From NCBI RefSeq assembly GCF_009720675.1, contig NZ_WNJO01000003.1:124001-188000 (forward strand): DNA of 64,000 bases, given 5' to 3'. Under the pieces are notes generated by a model, which worked only from the letters and a program-made list of their open reading frames with translations, was not told the DNA's origin and made no database searches. The translations under genes were made by a program, and so were the position numbers. This document shows, one piece after another, positions 1 to 53,467 of the stretch (within the stretch, counting starts at the first letter, position 1; each line of letters starts with the position of its first letter). The stretch is from Secundilactobacillus folii. Lineage in GTDB: Bacteria > Bacillota > Bacilli > Lactobacillales > Lactobacillaceae.

Positions 1-409
1 TAATCTGATTCAGTGCCAGCGCACCCGTCCAGCTTTGAAAACCAAACCAAACGATGGCTGGCACCCCGCGCAGAAGACTGGCAAGCTTGGCACCTTGCTG
101 CCCGAACGATAATCTCAGTTGAATCACGTACGGTGCTCCCGTTTGATAACCGAAACGATCATTGAAGGTAAAAATCAACGAAATCAACGAAATGGCAATT
201 ATTGCAGCAGTCATCGTCTGCATCAGGTTCAACGTTGCAGCACCAGCCACGACAATCGAAGAGCCTAAGGTAATGTTGCCAATGTTGAAGCCATCACCCA
301 GCCACATCGCCGCGTAAGCAAGCGTACCAACATGCCGTGTGTCAGTGGTCAACGGCCGTAAATCAGCGGCAACGTTATCCCACCTATCATTGCTGATGGA
401 TGGTGTCAT
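1..409 (-). CDS. NCS1-family nucleobase/pyrimidine permease (N-terminal part, cut by window edge)
   Basis: The reverse strand reads from an ATG at 409-407 to the window edge without a stop (about 136 residues). The product starts MTPSISNDRWDNVAADLRPL and continues with TM1 features typical of the nucleobase:cation symporter-1 family: a WLGDGFNIGNI stretch, then hydrophobic segments and FNDRFGYQTGAPYV. NCS1 members carry allantoin, cytosine, hydantoin or, as CytX/PnuT-like THI-box members do, thiamine pyrimidine precursors. The start overlaps the stop of the upstream amidohydrolase (ATGA), so the two are translationally coupled and share the TPP riboswitch upstream. On sequence alone the closest annotation is allantoin permease; the riboswitch argues for a thiamine-related pyrimidine. 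The substrate is therefore inferred. Confidence 0.85.
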   Translation of the reverse strand, partial: MTPSISNDRWDNVAADLRPLTTDTRHVGTLAYAAMWLGDGFNIGNITLGSSIVVAGAATLNLMQTMTAAIIAISLISLIFTFNDRFGYQTGAPYVIQLRLSFGQQGAKLASLLRGVPAIVWFGFQSWTGALALNQI

Positions 410-1797
410 AACGTTGCCTCCGTTCGCAGGTCGTTCGTTAAGAATTTACCAGTTGGCTCTTTACTGAACGGTCGTCCCAGTTCAAAAATCGTTTGGCCAC
501 GTAAGAGGGTTCGCGTTACTCGACTGTGAATCGTCCGGCCAACGTAAGCAGACAGTTTATTTTTATAGAATAGATCCTCATTACGTAACGTATAACTAGC
601 GTTAGGGTCCAGCAAAACAAAGTCCGCATCTTTACCAACCGTGAGTTGCCCCTTCTGTGTCAGGCCGAATAGTTCCGCAGGACGTTGGGCTGTCAAATGC
701 ACAAACTGGGTGACGGATAACTTGCCGGATTTTACCCCCACATCGTAAAACAAGTCCACGTTATTCTGTGCCCCACTGATACCACCCCAGACTTCGAAAA
801 TATTATTGTGAGGGTCAGCCTTCATTGCTGCTGGTGCAGGTGAGTGGTCAGAGGTCACAATATCCACGTGACCAGCTTGGACTTCGTGCCAGAGGTCGGC
901 CTGGATCTCAGGTGACCTCAGTACAGGCGCACACTTAGCTAGCGGCCCAATGCGCTTAAAATCAGCTGTCGTCAGGGTCAAATAGTGGACACAGGTTTCA
1001 CAGGTCACGTCCTGTCCTGCCTGGCGCGCTCTTTGAACCTCTCGGACTGCTGCCCCAGTTGATAGGTGAACAAAGTGCAGTTTGCAGCCGGTCTGTTTAG
1101 CAATATACAGAGCTCTTCTTACTGCTTCGACCTCCACCATTGGCGGTCGAGAATCAATGTAGGCTTGAATGTCAGTATGACCCTGTGCAATTTCTGCTTC
1201 GGCTAGTCGATCCGTTAACACCGCATTCTCTGCATGCAAGGATAGTCGCAGCCCAGTCTTAGCAGTGGCTTGCATCCCCCAGTAGAGATCATAATCGTCC
1301 ACGTTATGAAAATCACCAGGCGTGTCCGTCCCAGCCGTTGCCATAAAAGCTTTAAATCCCGCTGCCCCAGTAGCTGCCATCGCTTCTATTTCAGCCTGAT
1401 TCCCCGGTACCAAGCCACCATACAGTGCGAAATCAACATACGATTTACCCGAGGCAATTTGGCGATGACGGTTGAATTCAGCAGCTGTCGTGCGCGCTGG
1501 CAGGGCATTTAACGGCATCACCACCATACTTGTGGTGCCACCGGCCGCCAGTGCTTGGCTGCCAGTTTGGTAATCTTCCCAGTCGCTGCGCCCCGGCTCG
1601 TTGATGTGGACGTGGGCATCCACCATACCAGGCAGTACCAGTTGCCCCTTGGCATCAATCGTTGTTACCGCAGTTAAGCCGTGATTTAACAGGTTCCCGA
1701 TGGCAGCAATTCTGCCATTCTCAATTGCCAGCTCACCTTTAACGACGCTTGTCGGGGTGACAATTGCAGCATTTTTAATAACGGTCGCTACTTGCAT
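406..1797 (-). CDS. allB: Allantoinase/dihydropyrimidinase-type amidohydrolase under TPP riboswitch control
   Basis: A 463-residue cyclic amidohydrolase. Zinc ligands are visible in DAHVHINEPGRSDWED, a likely carboxylated lysine in GFKAFMATAG, and further metal/active-site motifs in LSLHAENA, HFVHLSTG and IVTSDHSPAP, in the order expected for allantoinase/dihydroorotase. The family opens cyclic amide rings in the cytosol. The reading frame stays open upstream to 1851, but that extension crosses an intrinsic terminator; the ATG at 1797-1795 has a good GGAGG 7 nt upstream and is the real start. It is followed by an NCS1 permease with a 4-bp overlap. A TPP riboswitch precedes it, unexpected for allantoin breakdown, so the substrate may be a thiamine degradation product or pyrimidine precursor. 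AllB is the family call, not proof of substrate. Confidence 0.85.
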   Translation of the reverse strand: MQVATVIKNAAIVTPTSVVKGELAIENGRIAAIGNLLNHGLTAVTTIDAKGQLVLPGMVDAHVHINEPGRSDWEDYQTGSQALAAGGTTSMVVMPLNALPARTTAAEFNRHRQIASGKSYVDFALYGGLVPGNQAEIEAMAATGAAGFKAFMATAGTDTPGDFHNVDDYDLYWGMQATAKTGLRLSLHAENAVLTDRLAEAEIAQGHTDIQAYIDSRPPMVEVEAVRRALYIAKQTGCKLHFVHLSTGAAVREVQRARQAGQDVTCETCVHYLTLTTADFKRIGPLAKCAPVLRSPEIQADLWHEVQAGHVDIVTSDHSPAPAAMKADPHNNIFEVWGGISGAQNNVDLFYDVGVKSGKLSVTQFVHLTAQRPAELFGLTQKGQLTVGKDADFVLLDPNASYTLRNEDLFYKNKLSAYVGRTIHSRVTRTLLRGQTIFELGRPFSKEPTGKFLTNDLRTEATL

Positions 1798-1835
1798 TTG
1801 ATTTCCTCCAGACACATTGGGGGCTGGAAATTGCG

Positions 1836-1871
1836 CAAATAAAAAGTCCATCTGAATAACTCAAATGGACT
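1836..1871 (-). terminator. Intrinsic terminator of the TPP riboswitch
   Basis: On the minus strand an 11-bp stem (AGTCCATTTGA paired with TCAGATGGACT, one wobble) with loop GTTAT is followed by TTTTTATTT. It lies between the aptamer and the ribosome site of the amidohydrolase, as expected for transcriptional OFF control when TPP is bound. Confidence 0.85.
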
Positions 1872-1966
1872 GGTAGTCTCTCGACTAATGGCGCTCCCTA
1901 CGGCAGTACGAACTGCATCAGGTTATTTGGGTATCTCTCAGCTATCGCTAGCACCCCAGACCACAA
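1872..1966 (-). promoter_or_regulatory. TPP riboswitch (THI box)
   Basis: The minus strand carries the conserved THI-box blocks in order: GGGGTGC, GCTGAGAGATACCC, then AACCTGATGCAGTT, GTACTGCCGTAGGGA. These match the two arms of the TPP aptamer (the CUGAGA and ACCUGAU-CAG blocks plus GUAGGGA closing strand). It sits between a strong promoter and an intrinsic terminator. It should repress the amidohydrolase and NCS1 permease when thiamine pyrophosphate is plentiful. Confidence 0.93.
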
Positions 1967-1982
1967 TGTTTTATTGTCTATT

Positions 1983-2011
1983 ATTAAATACAATTTGGTA
2001 GATGATGTCAA
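1983..2011 (-). promoter_or_regulatory. Sigma-A promoter of the riboswitch operon
   Basis: On the minus strand, TTGACA (2011-2006), a 17-bp spacer and TTTAAT (1988-1983) precede the TPP aptamer by about 20 nt. Confidence 0.75.
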
Positions 2012-2084: not shown

Positions 2085-3563
2085 TTAACTAACTGCCACA
2101 ACCTTAGCGACCTTTTCCAACTTCACCTGAACAATTTTCTTTCTTAAATTATCCCAGTTTGACATTTGTAGTGGATCCGACCAGGTCACTTGCGGAATAT
2201 CTCGAATACCAGCCACGAAGATATCCGACAGATAAATATCAACGTTACTGCTCAGATGATCAGCAAAAACGATGCCACCACCAAGGTTAACGCGAATCAT
2301 CTGTGAAAAATAGTCCTTTGGAATTTCATTTTGAACAAAGTCCACACAGATCGTCACTTTATCTTGCATTAAACGGCTAGGAATACTGTCGATCAGCACC
2401 CGCAGATAAAAATTGGTTAAGTCAGTTTGACAACCATTTGCCAAATTGAGTTTAAAAATCGCCGTTGCTGTTCGGACTAGGTCTTTAGCCAGTAGTGTCA
2501 GTCCCGGAAAGTTGCGGGTCAGATGCTGACCATCTCTGCTTTTGACTTTATACATCTGATTAAAGTCAAAAACTAGAAATGAGTTGCTCATCTTTGCCAA
2601 ATGCAAGGCAATTTGATGCCGCAATTGCTCTGAAAATTGATCCTGACTTAAGACTGGTGTGTTCGCCAGTACGCGTTCAAATTGCTGCGTAGCGTTAACA
2701 AACTGTTTTTCAAAAGTGTTGGCGACTTTCACCGGCGCGTGCTGGACGATCTCTTCACTGGCCATGAATAAAAGTAGAAAACCAACTTCAGAATCAATAT
2801 CGGCTGATTCCGCATGTGGTACATTTTTAAGGTAGTAGTTCTTTAAGAATGGTAGTCTGCTATCAGGCTGTAATTTGGCTAAATGACGAATATTAACAAA
2901 ATGGCGGCCTTGTAATCGTTTGTACTGAATCTGAAAGAACATCCGCAACTTTAACTGTTGACCCGGTGTGAGTGAAAGTTTAAAAGTCATGGTGATAAAA
3001 TTACAGAATTTAGCAGTTTCAGTATTAATATCTGGAAATGGATTCTCAATGCCATTAAAGAAATGAGCGTAAATATTGGTCAGCTGAACTCGCTTACGCA
3101 GTTCAGGATGAACATTTAGAACTGGTGACTTAGTAGGCTGTTGATTGTCATTCAAAATTGGATCCATTTCAGCTCGAATTGCATAGTATCTTGACTGACT
3201 CAAGTAGTGTTCTTTAAGAAACTGCTGACGGGTCTCACCCTGTCGATCGACGTATTCATATTGAAAAATCTGGAATCGAAGCGAGCGTTTCAGGTATTTC
3301 AGCTGAATGGCTTGCAACAGACTAAAACTAAGGTTGTCACCGACTAACTCATTGTCTTCAAAAACCAGTCGACAACTGGTTTCTTTAAATTGATTTAGGT
3401 CTTCAATTAAACTATTTAGCAACTTATTCAAGCGATATCGCGTTAACCCCAAGTCATCTAATAGCCGTTTTATACTAACTCTCCTAGCTCGACTATGATC
3501 TAACTTCAGCAATATCTGCATTTTCACCCGATCGTCCTTCTCCAAAAACGTAAAATATTCCAT
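2085..3563 (-). CDS. Mga/AtxA-like helix-turn-helix transcriptional regulator
   Basis: About 492 residues. The N-terminus (MEYFTFLEKDDRVKMQILLK) is followed by a helix-turn-helix region (SIKRLLDDLGLTRYRLNKLL, residues ~31-50) of the Mga-type HTH fold, then a long alpha-helical region without enzyme motifs. Lactobacilli carry many such stand-alone Mga-like proteins, which usually regulate nearby surface or metabolic genes; no PTS-regulated residues could be assigned by eye. The start at 3563 is chosen because GGGGGAG lies 6 nt upstream; the frame is open ten codons further. Its target is unknown. It is divergent from the TetR gene at 3843, but the 280-bp gap makes shared regulation only a possibility. 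Confidence 0.75.
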   Translation of the reverse strand: MEYFTFLEKDDRVKMQILLKLDHSRARRVSIKRLLDDLGLTRYRLNKLLNSLIEDLNQFKETSCRLVFEDNELVGDNLSFSLLQAIQLKYLKRSLRFQIFQYEYVDRQGETRQQFLKEHYLSQSRYYAIRAEMDPILNDNQQPTKSPVLNVHPELRKRVQLTNIYAHFFNGIENPFPDINTETAKFCNFITMTFKLSLTPGQQLKLRMFFQIQYKRLQGRHFVNIRHLAKLQPDSRLPFLKNYYLKNVPHAESADIDSEVGFLLLFMASEEIVQHAPVKVANTFEKQFVNATQQFERVLANTPVLSQDQFSEQLRHQIALHLAKMSNSFLVFDFNQMYKVKSRDGQHLTRNFPGLTLLAKDLVRTATAIFKLNLANGCQTDLTNFYLRVLIDSIPSRLMQDKVTICVDFVQNEIPKDYFSQMIRVNLGGGIVFADHLSSNVDIYLSDIFVAGIRDIPQVTWSDPLQMSNWDNLRKKIVQVKLEKVAKVVAVS

Positions 3564-3686
3564 TGTGGCTCCCCCTATTTCACTGTAAAACAAAACGCCG
3601 GAATCCCAACATTCGGCATTTATATTTTTCTCTGCGTAGCTTCTCCCAAAAAGCTAGTAAAAATAACTCCAACAACGATATTCTTG

Positions 3687-5008: not shown

Positions 5009-8000
5009 TTACAGTTGCTTACGACGCTTTTCTGCACCAGCTAAGCCAAGCAGTCCTAGAACACCGCCTAACAAGCCAAGTGTTGCGACGCCATCAGCAG
5101 ATTGTTCGTTCGTTTGTGGCAAATCAGCTTTCTTGGCTGCTTCACTCTTCGACGAAGTCATAACCTTGGTACCATTTGCGGCACTCTTGTCACTAGCAGT
5201 GTTGCCACCGTTTGACGTAGCTTGTGCTGCTACTTCACCTCCTTTACCACTATTAGCAGTCGCACCAGTGGTCGTGGAGCCAGTCGTAGTACCAGTGGTA
5301 CTAGTTGAGGTATCGTTGCCGCCGCCACCATTAGTATTGGTGTTGGTGTTCGTGTTCGTATTGGTCGTGGAGATGCCGCCACCAGGATTGGTAGTGGTGT
5401 TGTTAGTAGTGCTGCCACCTGGGTTGGTGTTACCACCAGGATTGGTATTGCCGCCTGGGTTAGTGTTACCACCTGGGTTGGTGTTACCACCAGGATTGGT
5501 ATTGCCGCCTGGGTTAGTGTTACCACCTGGGTTAGTGTTACCACCTGGGTTGGTGTTGCCACCTGGGTTGGTGTTGCCACCTGGGTTAGTGTTACCACCT
5601 GGGTTGGTATTGCCGCCTGGGTTAGTGTTACCACCATTGGTCTTATCGCTGTAATTTACAGTGACACTGCCACCACCAGGAAGTGTGAAGGTAACCGTGT
5701 TGCCATCAGCATTAACGGTGTACTTAGTGCCATCAGAAGCGGTTCCTGTAGCACCCGGCTTCAAGTTCTTCACTTGTGTGCCATCTGGCAAGGTTAAGGT
5801 AACTGTACCGTCACCGTTTTGAGTAACCGTGTAGTTCCCAGTTGGTGTTTGAGTCGTGGTGCTTGTACCACCCTTGTCACCGTTGACGTTAACATTCACG
5901 TTAACAGTCACACTGTTACTGTTGGTTGAACCCTTCGATGGATCCATTGTGAAGGTCGTGCCATCTGGCGTAGTAAAGGTAACTGTGCCATCTGGGTTGA
6001 TCACGTACTTCGTACCATCTGGCAAAGTACCCTTGTCACCTGGCTTACCTGTTTGGGTACCACCTGGCGTAGTAAAGGTAATCGTACCATCTGGGTTCTT
6101 AACAACCGTGACAGTGGTGTTCTTACCATCTTTACCAGGGATAACAACAACTGTGCTTTGTCCACCATTACCTTCTTGACTGCCATTACCATAGTAGTTG
6201 TTAGTAATGTAAACATTGTTGCCAGTAGTTGAACCCTTGGAAGGATCAATCGTGGTGGTTGAGCCATCAGGATTAGTGATGGTCAAAGTGCCATCAGGGT
6301 TAACCGTGTATTTACCGCCATTCGGCAAGGTTCCCGTATCACCCGGCTTGACAGTCTTTGCGCCATCAGGGAGGACAAGTGTGTAAGTGCCGTCAGGATT
6401 CTGGGTGTAGGTAATCGTTGCGCTCTTACCATCGCTGCCAGCAGGCAATACAATCGTGGTCGTCTTCGAACCATCAGTCCCATAGTAGTTGTTGATGGTC
6501 GTGTTACCACTGTTCGTATTGTTATTATTGCCGCCACCATTGTTCGTTGTGCTTGAAGCACCCTTGCTTGGGTCAATGGTGAAGTGTGCACCGGTTGGCG
6601 TGGTGATCGTGATCGTGCCATCTGGGTTAACAACGTAGGTTGCACCATTTGGTAACGAACCAGTATCACCTGGTTTAACGGTTTGAGTTGAGCCATCTGG
6701 CATGGTCAAAGTAATCGTGCCATCTGGGTTCTTCGTAACCTTGACTAGGATACCACCGTTACCGTCCTTGTTAGTAACAAAGACAACGGTTGTTTCACCA
6801 GTTGCAGGGTTCGTGTTGCCTGAACCGCCATTGTTGTTGATGTTGATCTCGTGGTTAGTCCCATCCTTTGGATCAACAGTGAAGGTTGAACCATCAGGAT
6901 TGGTGAAGGTGATCGTGCCATCTGGGTTAACAACGTAAGTGGTGCCATTTGGCAAGGTACCCTTGTCACCTGGTTTAACTTCCTTAGTTGTGCCATCTGG
7001 CATGTGGAGGATGACGCTGCCGTCACCAGTCTTTTCAACGGTGATAATTGACGTAGCACCGTCCTTGCCATCAGCACCCTTTTGACCAGGGAGAACAATC
7101 ACTGTGGTCTTGCTGTCACTAGCAGTTGGTTGACCAGAATCCTTGTTAGGGTCAACGGTGTAACTGTTGCCCTTAGCATCGGTAAAGGTGATCGTACCAT
7201 CTGGGTTAACAACGAAGCTACCACCAGCTGGGTTCGTGTGACTTGAAGTGTCGCCTGGTTTAACGGTTTCAGTCGTGCCATCTGGGAAGTGGAAGGTTAA
7301 TGAACCATCGTTGTTCTTAGTGACCGTGATGCCACCGTTTTGACCAGGGATGTTAATGATAATTGGTTGAACAGTCGTGGTCGTTGAACCGCCATTATTG
7401 GTAGTCCCCTTGCCGCCATTTTCCAATGACTTCAAGTTTGAGTTAGGGTCCCGAGGGTTAGTACCATTCAATAATTCTTGGAGGTCTGAATCGCCATCAC
7501 CATCGGTATCTTTGCTATCTGGGTTAGTACCAAGGATTTCTTCTAGATAATCAGGAATGCCATCACCATCAGTATCCTTGGCGCTGTTACCAGTACTCGT
7601 GCTGCCGTTGCCGTTGTTGTTGATCGTAATTTCGTGGGTTGTCCCAGCATCTGGATCAATCGTGTAAGTCTTACCATTTGGATCCGTAAAGGTAATCGTA
7701 CCATCAGGGTTGACGACGTATGATCCGCCACCATTTGGTAAGGTTCCTTTATCACCAGGCTTAACCGTCTTGGTTGTGCCGTCTGGCATGTGGATAATGA
7801 TGCTACCATCAGGAGTCTTTTCAACCGTGATGATTTGATCAGGTGCATCCTTGCCATCAGTACCATTTTGCCCAGGAATTACAAGTACAGTTGTCTTGCT
7901 CTCTGGGTTAGTGGCTTGACCGGTTTCCTTTGATGGATCAACGGTGTAAGTCTTACCGTTCTTGTCAATAAAGGTGATCGTGCCATCTGGGTTAATGACG

Positions 8001-11000
8001 AATGAACCGCCATCAGAGGTAGGATGACTCGAGTTATCACCAGGTTTAACAGTTTCAGAAGTGCCATCTGGGAAATGCAGGATGAATGATCCGTCATCAC
8101 CCTTGGTAATGGTGACACCGTCTTGGTCTGAACCTGGCAAGTTAACGATGATCGGTTGACTCTCGGTACCAGTTGTCCCGTTCGTACCAGTAGTTGCACC
8201 ATTGCCATCGACATTAATGATAATTGTGTTGCCCTTGCCATCAGAACCGTTATTCATCGTCTTGTGATTTGAATTAGGATCCCGAGGGTTAGTACCGTTC
8301 AGAATTTCTTGCAGGTCAGTGTCACCGTCACCATCCGTATCAACGGAGTCAGGGTTCGTACCGATCTTAATTTCAAAGCTATCTGGAATCCCATCACCAT
8401 CAGTATCAACTGGTGTTGCTGTGGTACCAGTGGTGCCGCCATTGTTAACTGTAATCGTGGTTGAAGCACCCTTGCTTGGATCAGTAGTAAAGGTCTTGCC
8501 ATCTGGTGTGGTGAAGGTAATGGTCCCATCTGGGTTAACCACGTACTTCGTCCCATCAGGTAAGCTGCCAGTATCACCTGGTTTAACCGTCTTGGTTGTG
8601 CCGTCTGGCATGTGCAAGATGATATCGCCACTTGGTGTCTTTTCAATCAATAAGGTCTGATCAGCACCGTTAGTCCCGTTAGCACCATCTTTACCAGGAA
8701 TCGTGATGTAGGTAACCAAACTGTTTGGTTGCGTTGTACCAGTCGACTTGTTGTTCGGGTCGATGGTGTAACTGTTACCATCACTGTCAGTAAAGGTGAT
8801 CGTGCCATCTGGGTTGACCTTGAAGTGGGTGCCATCTGAGGTTGTGTGGTCGGTGTTGTCACCTGGCTTGATCGTTTGAGTTGAGCCATCTGGGAAGTGG
8901 AAGGTCAAGCTGCCATCAGCACCACGGTCAACCGTAATCCCTGAATCCTTGCCACTCTGACCTGGTAAGACGATAGTGATCGGTTTGTTGCTATCACTAG
9001 TGCCACCCTTGTCAGTCGAGGTTGAACCACCAGGATTAGTGTTACCATTGGTGTTCGTGTTAGTGTTCGTCACGTTAATGGTGATTGGTTGACCAGCATT
9101 CTTACCAATCTCTTTAGGATCAATGGTCTGTGTGTGACCATCTTTATCAGTAAAGGTGATCGTGCCATCTGGATTGATCACAAATGAACCGTTTGAATTA
9201 GTTGACGGATTACCCTTAGTCAACGTCTCAGTGTGCCCATCTGGATAGGTAATGGTGTATGTCCCATCGCCGTTGTCTACCAGTGTGACTTGAACAGCTG
9301 GGTTCTTAGTCTGTGACTGCGTATAGTACATTACGTCAATGTTACCGCCACCAGAAGGAATGTTGTAGCTCTTCAGTTGGTTGGCATTCGGCTTGTACCA
9401 AGTGTTGCCGGCCGCATCCTTATAAGTTGCTGCTAAACCACTTGCGTCAACATCGTCACCTGGCTTACCAGTTAAGTTAGAACTTGTTGAACCAGCCAGT
9501 ACATTACCGCTGTCGTCTACGGCATCGATGGTGTAAGTGACGTTGTTAGCACTTGTTGAAGGGTTGGTTGTCTGACTGCCACCGTTAGCATAAACAACCT
9601 TAACAATACCACCCAATGCATCCAAAGTCTTTTGATTTGGAACCTTCCTAGTCGAAACATCAGGTTTGTTCCAGGTAGTGGTCGTTACAGTCCCATCAGG
9701 ATTGTTAACAGTGGTAGTGTATTGGTCGTTTAAACCAGTTGTATCCAAAGCGGATCCTGGATTACCAGTCTTCCCACTAACAGTTCCCAAAACGTTTCCA
9801 GCTGAATCAACAGCTTCTACAGAATAAGTAATACCAGTAGGAGTCGTTTGACCAGCAAGCGTAATTTTGGCTGCTTTTGGTGCAACAACATTATAGGTAG
9901 CATTAGCTTTCGCTGCAGCATCTTTAACAGCGTTTGCTAGCAGAGTTTCACCAGTAGAACTCAAGGCATACGTATTATCTGCGTTGACCGTAAAGTCATC
10001 GGAAGTAAATGTCGGCATAGCAATACCAGAAACACCGGTCTTATCAGCATCAGAATCAGTTGAACTAGGAGTAATAGTTAAAAGACCTGAACCGCCAGGA
10101 TTGGCTGTAAGATAATCATTAAGAACGTCTTGGGCAGTTTTTTCAGTGGCTGTCCCCGTCAAATCTTTCAGCGTGGCAGTACCAATCACGGTATTTGTGG
10201 TAGTGGTTGTACCTGGAGTATTAGTAATCGCTCCACCTAGCTGGATAATTGATTGATCAACATCATACTGTGATGCATTAGGATTAGCCAGCAGGTTCTT
10301 AGCACGGGTTACTTGGTCAGCGGTACCTTTATTAGTACCATTCACAAGGTCTTGTAATTGCGATTTATCAACATTTTGATAAGCAATCGTTGTTGATGAG
10401 TCCATGCTTTGCTTGAAAAGAACCGTGTTAGTTGCAATGTTTTCACCAACAAATTGACCTGCAGCGGCACCATCCGCCTTCAAGTCTGGGTCAGTCCAAG
10501 TAATTGGGAAGGCCGCATTAATTGTCGAACCACCAAGAGTACCTGAAATAGCTTCACCAATTGCACTGCCACCGACGTTAGTAACGCCAGAAACGGCATC
10601 AGTCAGAGCCTTCACGATTGGATCAGCAACGCCTTTAGCTGCAACATTTAAAGCAGTTTTAAGTGCTCCTGTAGTTAAACTACCAAGTCCACTTGAGTTC
10701 TCAGCAGTTAAGACATCAATCGGTGCCTTACCATCATATTGTTGCGTATCTGGAGAATCTACACCTTGAATATAATGGAACGTGTTGGTCCCGGCAAATA
10801 CACCTTCGATACCATCTTGAATACCAGTGATCCAACCGTTAATGTAATCCTTAAGCATGTTACCAATAGTTGTGGCGACATTCGCATTAGTAACGGCTTG
10901 ATAAACGGTTTGTGTAACAGTCTTAGTAGCAGTTGGGTTATCAGATGTTGGTGCTGGAATAGTGGTTTGTTGTGAGGTGCTTGTAACCGGAACAAGTACT

Positions 11001-12553
11001 GTCGCTGCAACACCACCAGCCATCAAAGTTTTACCGAAATTATTTAATTCAGTAATTTCATCCTGAACGTTTTGCAGAGATGCTTTATAGACATTATCAA
11101 AGTTGTCATGATGCATGCCTACTAAACCAGCAGCGCTTGTTACAGCTGATATAACTGAACCTGCATCGCCAACCAAGGAATTACCAGCACCACCGGCCCA
11201 GGTGCTCAATTGATTAATAGCATCGGTAACCGTTTTAACAACGCCACCAACGGTTGCATTAGCATTCAACGAAACCGTTTCAACGGCCATGTTATTAAGC
11301 TGTGTACCAACCGTGTATTTATCTTTATCACTGCCAATGGTACCGTAATCAGAATCCACAATTCGGAATTGTTCATGGGTCCCTTTGTCGCCATTGTCAG
11401 TATCAACGTCTTCAATCGTAATACCAACCGGCGTCTGTTCAATGACGCGCCACGTACCCACTTTAAGTGAGGAAGCTAAATCAGATGGCACAGAGAATGA
11501 AGCACCGTTTGTACTGTTCCCAACAAGTGAAGCTTGAACAACTGCAGGAGCTGAACCATTGGCGTAAATAACTGCATAACGTGTAGTCGCTTTAGTTGGG
11601 TCAGTCTTAGCAGCGACGACGTCCAATTGATCTGAACTGATGGCATCCTGGTCATTAAGTTGATCAGCGGTCCCAGCCTTCGCCTTAGTGTTTGGATAAA
11701 CACTATCAAAGTTCATGTCCATGTTGTCGTTCTTCGCATCATTACCATTTGTATTTGGTGATGAGAAGTTTGTACTATCGGTACCATCGGTCTTAGGCGC
11801 ATTATTCGTATCTGGCGCTGTCTTTGCACCATCGTAAACAGTAGCATAACTTGTGTCAGGGTTGGCGGCATCCCCACGCTTCTGCGAAGCATTAGCGGTG
11901 TTGATTAAACCGTCAGCACTCTTAGAGTCACCTAATTGTGCAGTGGCACTATTGTTAGCTTGAGCTTTATTTCCACCACCAAATAACTGACCATTCACAA
12001 GAGCATTCGAAGTATCTGTCGATGCATTAGCTCCATCTGGTGTGTTGATTGGTTGAGTAGTCGTCGTATCACTAATAGTCGGTACGCTGGTCTGAGTAGT
12101 TGTCGTAGTGGCCTTGGTGATATCACCTGGCTGAGCCTTTGCCTGATCATTAGTGCTACCAGAATTAGGTGTACCTGAATTACCATCAGTAGGCGCAGCA
12201 GTCGGTGCAGCTTGAGCTGGCGTAGCAGCCTTAGCTGATGTGTCAGTAGTTGCAGCTGGCGTAGCAGCCTTAGTTGTCGAAGCAGTAGTTGGCGTCGTAG
12301 CAACTGGCGCAGCGGTTGTTTGTGACTTGGCTGCTGCTCCCTGCACAGCAGTCGTTGTCGGTTCGTTGTTAGTTTCCTTAGCTGATGCAGAAGCTGGTGT
12401 ACTAATCAGCGCAGCACCAATTGAGAAAGTCGCGATCCCGGCAAAGAGCCAAAAACGTCCTGCCTTATACATCCGGTAGTGTAGCTTAGATGATTCATTC
12501 TCTAAAGCTAACTTCCGGTTCTGTTTGGAAAGATTTTTAGAACCTCGTCCCAT
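5009..12553 (-). CDS. Giant repetitive LPxTG cell-surface adhesin with KxYKxGKxW signal peptide
   Basis: About 2,514 residues, sortase-anchored to the wall. Residues 26-35 (YRMYKAGRFW) form the KxYKxGKxW-type signal. After a Thr/Ala/Pro-rich linker comes a non-repetitive region to about residue 900, then two MucBP-like segments (TYTIDAVDDSGNVLAG type), then eleven modules each containing a VxNPDGTITFT-xxDGxxYTxDP core, alternating with HMPDGTTKTVKPGD hairpins. Two thrombospondin-3-like calcium segments (DTDGDGIPD...NGTNPRDPNSN) lie near residues 1380-1430 and 1655-1705. Twelve NPGGNT hexapeptides at ~2308-2380 form a wall-spanning stalk. LPQTNE, a hydrophobic helix and KRRKQL end the protein. 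The start at 12553 has GGGAGG 9 nt upstream; the frame is open 23 codons further. A role in adhesion or aggregation is inferred; the ligand is unknown. Confidence 0.9.
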   Translation of the reverse strand: MGRGSKNLSKQNRKLALENESSKLHYRMYKAGRFWLFAGIATFSIGAALISTPASASAKETNNEPTTTAVQGAAAKSQTTAAPVATTPTTASTTKAATPAATTDTSAKAATPAQAAPTAAPTDGNSGTPNSGSTNDQAKAQPGDITKATTTTTQTSVPTISDTTTTQPINTPDGANASTDTSNALVNGQLFGGGNKAQANNSATAQLGDSKSADGLINTANASQKRGDAANPDTSYATVYDGAKTAPDTNNAPKTDGTDSTNFSSPNTNGNDAKNDNMDMNFDSVYPNTKAKAGTADQLNDQDAISSDQLDVVAAKTDPTKATTRYAVIYANGSAPAVVQASLVGNSTNGASFSVPSDLASSLKVGTWRVIEQTPVGITIEDVDTDNGDKGTHEQFRIVDSDYGTIGSDKDKYTVGTQLNNMAVETVSLNANATVGGVVKTVTDAINQLSTWAGGAGNSLVGDAGSVISAVTSAAGLVGMHHDNFDNVYKASLQNVQDEITELNNFGKTLMAGGVAATVLVPVTSTSQQTTIPAPTSDNPTATKTVTQTVYQAVTNANVATTIGNMLKDYINGWITGIQDGIEGVFAGTNTFHYIQGVDSPDTQQYDGKAPIDVLTAENSSGLGSLTTGALKTALNVAAKGVADPIVKALTDAVSGVTNVGGSAIGEAISGTLGGSTINAAFPITWTDPDLKADGAAAGQFVGENIATNTVLFKQSMDSSTTIAYQNVDKSQLQDLVNGTNKGTADQVTRAKNLLANPNASQYDVDQSIIQLGGAITNTPGTTTTTNTVIGTATLKDLTGTATEKTAQDVLNDYLTANPGGSGLLTITPSSTDSDADKTGVSGIAMPTFTSDDFTVNADNTYALSSTGETLLANAVKDAAAKANATYNVVAPKAAKITLAGQTTPTGITYSVEAVDSAGNVLGTVSGKTGNPGSALDTTGLNDQYTTTVNNPDGTVTTTTWNKPDVSTRKVPNQKTLDALGGIVKVVYANGGSQTTNPSTSANNVTYTIDAVDDSGNVLAGSTSSNLTGKPGDDVDASGLAATYKDAAGNTWYKPNANQLKSYNIPSGGGNIDVMYYTQSQTKNPAVQVTLVDNGDGTYTITYPDGHTETLTKGNPSTNSNGSFVINPDGTITFTDKDGHTQTIDPKEIGKNAGQPITINVTNTNTNTNGNTNPGGSTSTDKGGTSDSNKPITIVLPGQSGKDSGITVDRGADGSLTFHFPDGSTQTIKPGDNTDHTTSDGTHFKVNPDGTITFTDSDGNSYTIDPNNKSTGTTQPNSLVTYITIPGKDGANGTNGADQTLLIEKTPSGDIILHMPDGTTKTVKPGDTGSLPDGTKYVVNPDGTITFTTPDGKTFTTDPSKGASTTITVNNGGTTGTTATPVDTDGDGIPDSFEIKIGTNPDSVDTDGDGDTDLQEILNGTNPRDPNSNHKTMNNGSDGKGNTIIINVDGNGATTGTNGTTGTESQPIIVNLPGSDQDGVTITKGDDGSFILHFPDGTSETVKPGDNSSHPTSDGGSFVINPDGTITFIDKNGKTYTVDPSKETGQATNPESKTTVLVIPGQNGTDGKDAPDQIITVEKTPDGSIIIHMPDGTTKTVKPGDKGTLPNGGGSYVVNPDGTITFTDPNGKTYTIDPDAGTTHEITINNNGNGSTSTGNSAKDTDGDGIPDYLEEILGTNPDSKDTDGDGDSDLQELLNGTNPRDPNSNLKSLENGGKGTTNNGGSTTTTVQPIIINIPGQNGGITVTKNNDGSLTFHFPDGTTETVKPGDTSSHTNPAGGSFVVNPDGTITFTDAKGNSYTVDPNKDSGQPTASDSKTTVIVLPGQKGADGKDGATSIITVEKTGDGSVILHMPDGTTKEVKPGDKGTLPNGTTYVVNPDGTITFTNPDGSTFTVDPKDGTNHEININNNGGSGNTNPATGETTVVFVTNKDGNGGILVKVTKNPDGTITLTMPDGSTQTVKPGDTGSLPNGATYVVNPDGTITITTPTGAHFTIDPSKGASSTTNNGGGNNNNTNSGNTTINNYYGTDGSKTTTIVLPAGSDGKSATITYTQNPDGTYTLVLPDGAKTVKPGDTGTLPNGGKYTVNPDGTLTITNPDGSTTTIDPSKGSTTGNNVYITNNYYGNGSQEGNGGQSTVVVIPGKDGKNTTVTVVKNPDGTITFTTPGGTQTGKPGDKGTLPDGTKYVINPDGTVTFTTPDGTTFTMDPSKGSTNSNSVTVNVNVNVNGDKGGTSTTTQTPTGNYTVTQNGDGTVTLTLPDGTQVKNLKPGATGTASDGTKYTVNADGNTVTFTLPGGGSVTVNYSDKTNGGNTNPGGNTNPGGNTNPGGNTNPGGNTNPGGNTNPGGNTNPGGNTNPGGNTNPGGNTNPGGNTNPGGNTNPGGSTTNNTTTNPGGGISTTNTNTNTNTNTNGGGGNDTSTSTTGTTTGSTTTGATANSGKGGEVAAQATSNGGNTASDKSAANGTKVMTSSKSEAAKKADLPQTNEQSADGVATLGLLGGVLGLLGLAGAEKRRKQL
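5415..5630 (-). repeat. 18-bp tandem repeat, 12 copies (NPGGNT stalk)
   Basis: Twelve in-frame 18-bp units encode NPGGNT (one NPGGST) inside the giant adhesin. Copies differ only at third positions (CCACCT/CCACCA/CCGCCT variants), with a partly repeating order of variants that suggests expansion by unequal crossing-over. Copy number is likely variable between strains. Confidence 0.95.
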
Positions 12554-12685
12554 AAAAATATGCCTCCCTAAATTTGAAAATCCATAAAAAAATACAAGCA
12601 TCAATGTACCTGTGCTATGCACACCCTTACAGTATCAAAATTGCCCTCAAAAATAGCCCCATTTTCCGCGAAATATTACAGAATA

Positions 12686-53169: not shown

Positions 53170-53467
53170 GTGTCAATCATTAAATTCAGATGAAAAGCGT
53201 TGACGAGAAACATCAACCTCGATTCAGATATAGAGAGTTGCCGGGTGGTGAAAGGCAATGATGAACGGGCGCGATGATCATCTCTGAGCTGTGTGTCAAA
53301 ACGGCTAAGCCGAAGTAGAACACATTGGGTGCACCCATTATCGTGCCAAGCGTATCGCAGCAATGCCGTACGTGAGAGGTAATTTCAATTTTGAAATTAT
53401 AAACTAAGGTGGTACCACGTGAAAGCGTCCTTAAATCGCAAGCAGTTTGCGATTAAGGACGCTTTTT
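53170..53467 (+). promoter_or_regulatory. T-box leader upstream of a hydratase-like gene
   Basis: Stem I distal part AGAGAGTTGCCGGGTGGTGA and ATCTCTGAGCTG (53231-53293), the T-box core AAGGTGGTACCACG (53406-53419), and terminator AAAGCGTCCTTAAATCGC...GCGATTAAGGACGCTTTTT (53422-53466). ATC just before TCTGAG is a possible specifier (Ile), but this is a guess. It should respond to uncharged tRNA. Confidence 0.92.

Follow-up and report, generated by a model that had tools for sequence, protein, structure and literature searches.

The DNA analysed here, 64,000 nucleotides of Secundilactobacillus folii (assembly GCF_009720675.1, contig NZ_WNJO01000003.1, positions 124,001 to 188,000; below, the window, and its genome, of 2.68 Mb in 58 contigs, G000), carries at its left end a thiamine pyrophosphate (TPP) riboswitch in front of an allantoinase-like gene, allB, and a gene for a permease of the NCS1 family, and our subject is the part that this pair may play in making the thiazole ring of vitamin B1. 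All features of the locus lie on the minus strand. The aptamer, or THI box (1968-1877), matches the full length of the Rfam TPP model RF00059 (positions 1-105) and scores 59.5 bits (gathering score 54.3; E 3.8e-9), which confirms the riboswitch proposed in an earlier note on this DNA, made from the sequence. Between the aptamer and allB lies an intrinsic terminator (1871-1845; AGTCCATTTGAGTTATTCAGATGGACT followed by TTTTT, with a 12-pair stem), which would form the expression platform; it is the one terminator found in 1700-2300, where shuffled sequences give a mean of 0.4, and the leader folds 3.3 standard deviations better than its shuffles. A promoter upstream of the aptamer (1983-2011) seems plausible from a reading by eye, in which TTGACA (2011-2006) and TTTAAT (1988-1983), separated by a 17-nt spacer, match 11 of 12 consensus letters; a stricter consensus promoter scan of 1700-2300 listed none. 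Of the complete promoter-aptamer-terminator arrangement that the earlier note had described, the aptamer and the terminator thus stand, and the promoter is a reading by eye alone. TPP-dependent switching at the terminator would fit this anatomy, on which the proposal is based. A weak AcpB/EbpR/MafR-like regulator gene (2085-3593, minus strand; 70 bits against a cut-off of 130) adjoins the riboswitch on its other side.

The allB gene (1797-406) encodes 463 residues, its most likely start being the ATG at 1797, behind the Shine-Dalgarno sequence GGAGGAAA; the start in the list of open reading frames (ORFs), an ATG at 1851, falls where the terminator stem region ends. Run as the longer ORF (1851-406), AllB scores 539.4 bits on the allantoinase equivalog TIGR03178, over the cut-off of 357.85, and scores high, but below their own cut-offs, on the allantoinase models PRK06189 (540 of 631) and PRK08044 (508 of 688). 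Its nearest solved structures are the allantoinases 8hfd and 3e74 (425 and 421 bits), the best hydantoinase reaching 276 bits. A hydantoinase or dihydropyrimidinase identity was considered and rejected, as the score on the D-hydantoinase model (303 bits) is below the cut-off of 393 and the structures are nearer to allantoinases. The motifs of the metal site (HxH, Lys, His, His, Asp) are kept in all seven TPP-controlled and four puc-type AllB proteins. The permease gene overlaps allB by 4 nt and runs past the edge of the window, which holds the N-terminal 136 residues (2-409), a fragment over the cut-off of PF02133; the complete gene (L008:11066-12409) encodes 447 residues. The full-length protein is nearest to NCS1 and allantoin permease models, under their cut-offs (TIGR00800, 175.9 of 353.1; PRK11375, 133.5 of 620), as is the permease of an allantoin cluster in another genome of our sample, G081 (165 and 127), and its closest solved structure is the hydantoin permease Mhp1. 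CytX was rejected as its identity (31 bits against the TIGR02358 cut-off of 309.85). The operon probably consists of just these two genes; the next same-strand ORF of at least 120 codons (L008:10226-10981) begins 84 nt further on and reads as an unrelated gene.

Relatives of AllB were sought in 201 Lactobacillaceae genomes at E<=1e-60, which gave 15 matches in 14 genomes (61-100% identity in eleven, 46-47% in three and 37% for a second copy in G081). A TPP aptamer precedes seven of the 15 (in G000, G139, G115, G162, G185, G180 and G109), and in all seven leaders a terminator-like hairpin with a T-run lies 3' of the aptamer, a count made with no chance control. Behind the permease the next ORF is on the opposite strand at four of these loci; in G000, G185 and G109 it is on the same strand and apparently unrelated. 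In G109 this is a gene read as pyruvate-oxidase-like (L087:2486-4345), absent behind the pair of G180. The AllB proteins at 66-74% identity (G081, G108, G122 and G032) are encoded beside AllC, a PucR-like regulator and an aminotransferase of class V, which reads as PucG-like and whose NCBIfam matches are transaminases under cut-off; those at 46-47% have as neighbours AllC and, by reading, AllE, AllD and FdrA. There is no TPP aptamer in the flanks of the eight other AllB loci, nor around the seven catabolic clusters that were rescanned over about 11-14 kb, all of which hold PucG-like or AllE-like genes. Residence beside allantoate genes without a THI box, which the earlier note had named as what would speak against its idea if it were consistent, is found for four of the 11 close pairs and is untrue of the other seven. 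The AllB tree (14 rows in its final form, from an alignment of 15) does not reject the TPP-controlled proteins as one clade (p-AU, approximately unbiased test, 0.285), so that TPP control of allB may have arisen once or several times. Since its close kin sit in allantoin-degrading clusters, the substrate of AllB is most likely allantoin. The earlier note's view that the family names would mislead is not supported for AllB, given the TIGR03178 score together with these catabolic relatives.

A real TPP riboswitch in front of the pair ties it to thiamine metabolism, and G000 has seven TPP aptamers genome-wide, that of the window included. Behind the other six lie TenA; a YkoEDC-like transporter; CytX-ThiW; ThiM-ThiD-ThiE; a YlmB-like and a YkoE-like protein; and thiS-thiF-thiG-AllC. 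TenA, CytX, ThiW, the ThiE beside the thi operon and ThiF are over NCBIfam cut-offs; we named YkoE, YkoD, YkoC, ThiM, ThiD and the second ThiE by reading. The amidohydrolase that we call YlmB-like passes PRK08596, a model named acetylornithine deacetylase, and shares its locus (L014:5696-7554) with the second YkoE-like protein, which has no NCBIfam match.

The thiS-thiF-thiG-AllC operon of G000 is on another contig (L013), so that in function the unit would extend beyond the window; thiG and the AllC gene overlap by 4 nt. ThiG matches at E<=1e-3 occur in 64 genomes of the sample; we took as true ThiG those with E<1e-90, in 19 of the 201, and dropped 45 genomes whose best E is no better than 1.6e-8 (partial matches to other proteins). 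A TPP aptamer lies upstream of the thi operon in all 19, farther upstream in G136. An AllC-like gene is part of the operon in 18 of them; it lies immediately behind thiG in 15 and behind a gene of the major facilitator superfamily (MFS) in three (G126, G073 and G136). The enzymes for which AllC may stand in are ThiO, a glycine oxidase that uses O2, and ThiH, a radical-SAM tyrosine lyase. Among the 19, ThiO over its cut-off (250.8 bits) is found once, in G113, where it occupies the place of AllC, and ThiH over its cut-off (380 bits) is found in none. ThiG itself is recognised by homology to solved structures (2htm, 237 bits; 1xm3, 200 bits), with the conserved active-site Lys aligned; the G000 protein has no NCBIfam match of that name. 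Some genes are interrupted, by decay or assembly: AllC and MFS in G126, MFS in G073, ThiG in G136 and a symporter in G108. Two TPP aptamers in tandem (L030:292-383 and 479-567) precede the thi operon of G137.

The AllC of the thi operon (thi-AllC) in G000 meets the broad family TIGR01879 (354.5 of 204), and its closest solved structure is the allantoate amidohydrolase 1z2l (392 bits by profile; other kinds at most 289). In trees it falls together with catabolic AllC. That of S. pentosiphilus clusters with that of the same-genus G162, G139 and G115, and the AllC of G073 and G136 falls with the catabolic one of G032, outside the main thi clade (support 100/100). Linkage to thiG requires four changes on the tree, gains and losses pooled, of which at least three are forced by well-supported branches. 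AllC may thus have been recruited into TPP-controlled thiSFG operons more than once, the tree suggesting that the linkage recurs independently. Alignments A1 and A2 and the trees exclude the AllC of G180, whose ORF start is unclear, and that of G126, which has an in-frame stop; the trees also exclude L101, L102, L103 and L120, which appear to be the same organisms as G088, G081, G109 and G126. The first tree is without another 26 of 80 AllC loci (far relatives among L136-L178); the second lacks 18 unlabelled rows as well as the long row cat_G081other and has an added row for G422, introduced below.

Two other activities of this AllC have to be weighed. It might act on another ureido acid, for example ureidoglycolate, giving 2-iminoacetate via hydroxyglycine, with AllB as an indirect supplier or serving another end: ureidoglycolate amidohydrolase belongs to the same family and the oxidation level of glyoxylate would also suit ThiG, but among solved relatives the allantoate enzyme is far nearer (392 bits, the ureidoglycolate enzyme reaching 257), an AllB under the same control would make allantoate, and AllE, the would-be source of ureidoglycolate, is in none of 20 ThiG genomes (the 19 and G422). 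We regard this as rather unlikely. Or AllC might process ThiS in the manner of an M20-type carboxypeptidase, AllB being a separate matter. ThiS (L013:5853-6053 in G000) ends in GGGR in the six Secundilactobacillus ThiG genomes, so that ThiF may depend on prior removal of the extra Arg, and M20 peptidases are distant relatives of AllC. Yet the other 14 of the 20 have a ThiS ending in GGG, 13 of them with AllC nonetheless, the AllC of G422 is near the E. coli type (511 of 532 bits) and the link to AllB is left unexplained; we give this idea hardly any credence.

The two operons go together. All seven genomes with TPP-controlled allB are among the 18 with thiG-AllC (hypergeometric 1.3e-8, without correction for kinship, and overstated because the genomes are related, five being of one genus and two of another). 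This bears on the proposal of the earlier note that the pair serves salvage, the AllB-like enzyme opening the ring of a pyrimidine, or of a product of thiamine breakdown, that the permease imports. TPP control of the pair, which is borne out by the anatomy of the leader, favours salvage, and NCS1 transporters such as CytX do occur in TPP regulons, G000 itself having TPP-controlled CytX-ThiW, TenA, YlmB-like and YkoEDC-like genes. However, AllB exceeds the cut-off for allantoinases but not that for hydantoinases and dihydropyrimidinases, its relatives at 66-74% are in allantoin clusters, the permease is far from CytX (31 bits, cut-off 310) and TPP-controlled AllB is confined, in our sample, to genomes with thiG-AllC. 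What stands of that proposal is the tie to thiamine metabolism; salvage as such we consider unlikely. TPP might, alternatively, merely regulate the catabolism of allantoin for nitrogen, with the linkage of AllC to thiG incidental, AllB, AllC and the permease being of catabolic families. Against this, TPP aptamers are missing from the flanks of all eight other AllB loci and from the wider stretches rescanned around seven of them, the PucG-like or AllE-like genes of these seven loci are missing from the seven genomes with TPP-controlled allB, and the linkage of AllC to thiG recurs independently. We hold this reading to be very improbable.

Transporters beside AllC add to the pattern. In all nine thiG-AllC genomes without allB at our threshold, a transporter gene adjoins that of AllC (DctA/GltP-like in six, MFS in three); among the nine with allB a DctA-like gene is present in four, that of G108 in two pieces (one-sided p 0.015). 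Such a distribution is expected if what is needed is allantoate, whether imported or made from allantoin. Outside this tally, at loci where allB was not searched for, a DctA-like gene lies behind AllC in L105 and L106, and the sequence of L100 stops 188 nt past AllC. Known outlets for ureidoglycine are also missing: a PucG-like aminotransferase is in none of the seven genomes with TPP-controlled allB and in five of 26 tested, all five with catabolic clusters, which, with the absence of AllE, leaves ureidoglycine without these two outlets in the seven. G081 and G108 do carry PucG.

An independent case comes from beyond the family. ThiG at E<=1e-40 was found in four of 295 Lactobacillales genomes, one of them, G422, outside the Lactobacillaceae and the only ThiG genome among 76 of its own family. 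Its operon reads TPP aptamer (55.0 bits), 2-hydroxyacid dehydrogenase, AllC, DctA-like transporter, thiS, thiF, thiG. The AllC scores 511 of 532 on the allantoate deiminase model NF006768 and 485 of 597.75 on TIGR03176, and in the tree lies among catabolic AllC of the E. coli type (G199, G053 and G182), apart from the thi-AllC of the Lactobacillaceae, which suggests a separate acquisition into a TPP-controlled thi operon. The first gene after the aptamer (L182:1893-2852) encodes a D-2-hydroxyacid dehydrogenase, phosphoglycerate dehydrogenase/glyoxylate reductase-like and under the cut-offs, which might reduce spilled glyoxylate. A second thiSFG set in G422 has no aptamer in the stretch scanned; upstream of it is a C-terminal AllB fragment of 91 residues (L183:8612-8887; 92 bits on PRK08044), adjoined by a gene read as nadC-like. 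More widely, the thi-AllC alignment was scanned against 84,980 species genomes and at least 80 loci were kept. Among the matches listed, thiSFG lies upstream of the seven best (49-61% identity) and of one from Fructobacillus (39%), all Lactobacillaceae; the next 13 (L107-L119, 37-41%), from Bacillaceae, Paenibacillaceae and one Clostridium, have AllB within flanks of about 6 kb in 11 cases. At the class level ThiG (E<=1e-40) is present in 108 of 151 genomes. AllC was found in the flanks, about 1.5 kb, of none of 29 class-level thiG loci (30 were listed, one being that of G000), and ThiO, sought with a single query, in three of the 29, both counts being weak evidence.

The reading we prefer, with a probability of about two in three (0.68), is a route in which allantoin feeds the synthesis of the B1 thiazole and AllB and AllC replace ThiO or ThiH. 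When TPP is low, the riboswitch would let transcription through the terminator; the permease would import allantoin and AllB would open it to allantoate, roles suggested by their families and catabolic relatives. The dedicated AllC, from the second TPP-controlled operon, behind thiSFG, would turn allantoate into ureidoglycine, CO2 and NH3. Ureidoglycine would shed urea first, giving 2-iminoacetate (dehydroglycine), which ThiG would condense with ThiS-thiocarboxylate and 1-deoxy-D-xylulose 5-phosphate (DXP). In relatives without allB, the DctA/GltP-like or MFS transporter would import allantoate. It also seems reasonably probable that some lactic acid bacteria build thiazole from purine waste in this general way, with AllC, recruited repeatedly into thi operons, as a third source of 2-iminoacetate, allantoinase and ureide transporters under TPP control as its feeders and DXP obtained without the synthase Dxs. 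Ureidoglycine is described as unstable, yielding glyoxylate, ammonia and urea (PMC4016543), and dehydroglycine as handed by ThiH to ThiG (PMC9046217).

Several points weigh against this route. Its central step, passage of ureidoglycine through 2-iminoacetate and capture by ThiG before hydrolysis to glyoxylate, is one that we infer, and iminoacetate hydrolyses to glyoxylate in water (PMC9046217). Given this hydrolysis, the close linkage of thiG and AllC and their 4-nt overlap in G000 would fit a local hand-over; channelling between the two enzymes is a guess. The thi-AllC of G000 is under the curated cut-offs (TIGR03176, 344 of 597.75; NF006768, 381 of 532), as is the catabolic AllC of G081, the one tested from the family (338 and 391). 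Other sources of 2-iminoacetate can be imagined: a generic FAD oxidase (105-156 bits on ThiO) is present in 11 of the 19 Lactobacillaceae ThiG genomes and could in principle oxidise glycine, and G081 and G108 have a ThiH-like protein of 477 residues (282 bits) that may be HydG, a name we infer; HydG makes dehydroglycine too (PMC9046217). Half of the thiG-AllC genomes (nine of 18) are without allB at our threshold, import of allantoate by the transporter beside AllC is presumed in these, and in Lentilactobacillus farraginis (L104, where allB was not searched for) thiSFG-AllC has no DctA-like gene right behind. Finally, the TPP-controlled allB genomes represent two genera.

The supply of DXP is a further difficulty. 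Dxs over the TIGR00204 cut-off is in none of the 19 Lactobacillaceae ThiG genomes; 16 of the 201 have it, none with ThiG, the two being mutually exclusive in this sample. A full-length N-terminal domain of Dxs (PF13292) is likewise in none of the 20 ThiG genomes, three control genomes giving 250-265 bits. Partial matches in seven of the 20 (42-69 of 274 positions, 20.5-39.6 bits per place, counted as over the low Pfam cut-off of 21.2, some only together with neighbouring matches in the frame) are probably transketolase-like, in other open frames. Because ThiG needs DXP, the pathway is incomplete as drawn. Since Dxs is also missing in the genome with ThiO, however, the gap is separate from the source of 2-iminoacetate; if our reading is true, these organisms must get DXP without Dxs.

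A gap of the fitting kind has been described: 89 gut genomes have a B1 pathway lacking only iminoglycine synthase (PMC6593275). We propose the AllB-AllC route as a possible answer to it. No paper joining a TPP riboswitch with an allantoinase was found in a search outside which lay most subscription papers, all preprints and other spellings such as THI box, and no title among the literature matches listed names allantoate or AllC as a source of thiazole. The route is testable in Lactobacillales and would link purine degradation to vitamin synthesis. If it is true, predicted B1 phenotypes change, thiazole prototrophy becoming dependent on allantoin or allantoate. Moreover, riboswitch targets can reveal roles of enzymes that bear catabolic family names.

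Elsewhere in the window, 5009-12622 (minus strand) encodes a predicted surface protein of 2537 residues whose long stretches of low complexity consist of NPGGNT repeats and whose end is LPxTG-like, and T-box leaders lie at 53191-53435 (plus strand, 101 bits) and 40929-40650 (minus strand, 98 bits).

The proposed route resembles four known systems and differs from each. Like ThiO, AllC would supply 2-iminoacetate from a gene beside thiG under a TPP riboswitch, an arrangement that ThiO has in G113 and in a Paenibacillus (PMC5627462); unlike ThiO, AllC is an unrelated metal hydrolase that would need neither oxidation nor O2 and would start from allantoate, not glycine. ThiH likewise supplies 2-iminoacetate to ThiG, whereas the AllC route would have no radical chemistry. 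Allantoin catabolism proceeds by AllB-AllC-AllE-AllD in E. coli and by the puc genes in Bacillus. It shares with the route the first two enzymes and the permease family, and such clusters occur in other Lactobacillaceae; in contrast, the G000 genes are TPP-controlled and split over two operons, one of them thiSFG, and the seven genomes with TPP-controlled allB have neither a PucG-like enzyme nor AllE. The CytX, YlmB, TenA and ThiW branches salvage hydroxymethylpyrimidine, thiazole and breakdown products of thiamine. They answer to the same regulator in the same genome, but the allB-NCS1 pair would feed thiazole synthesis de novo instead.

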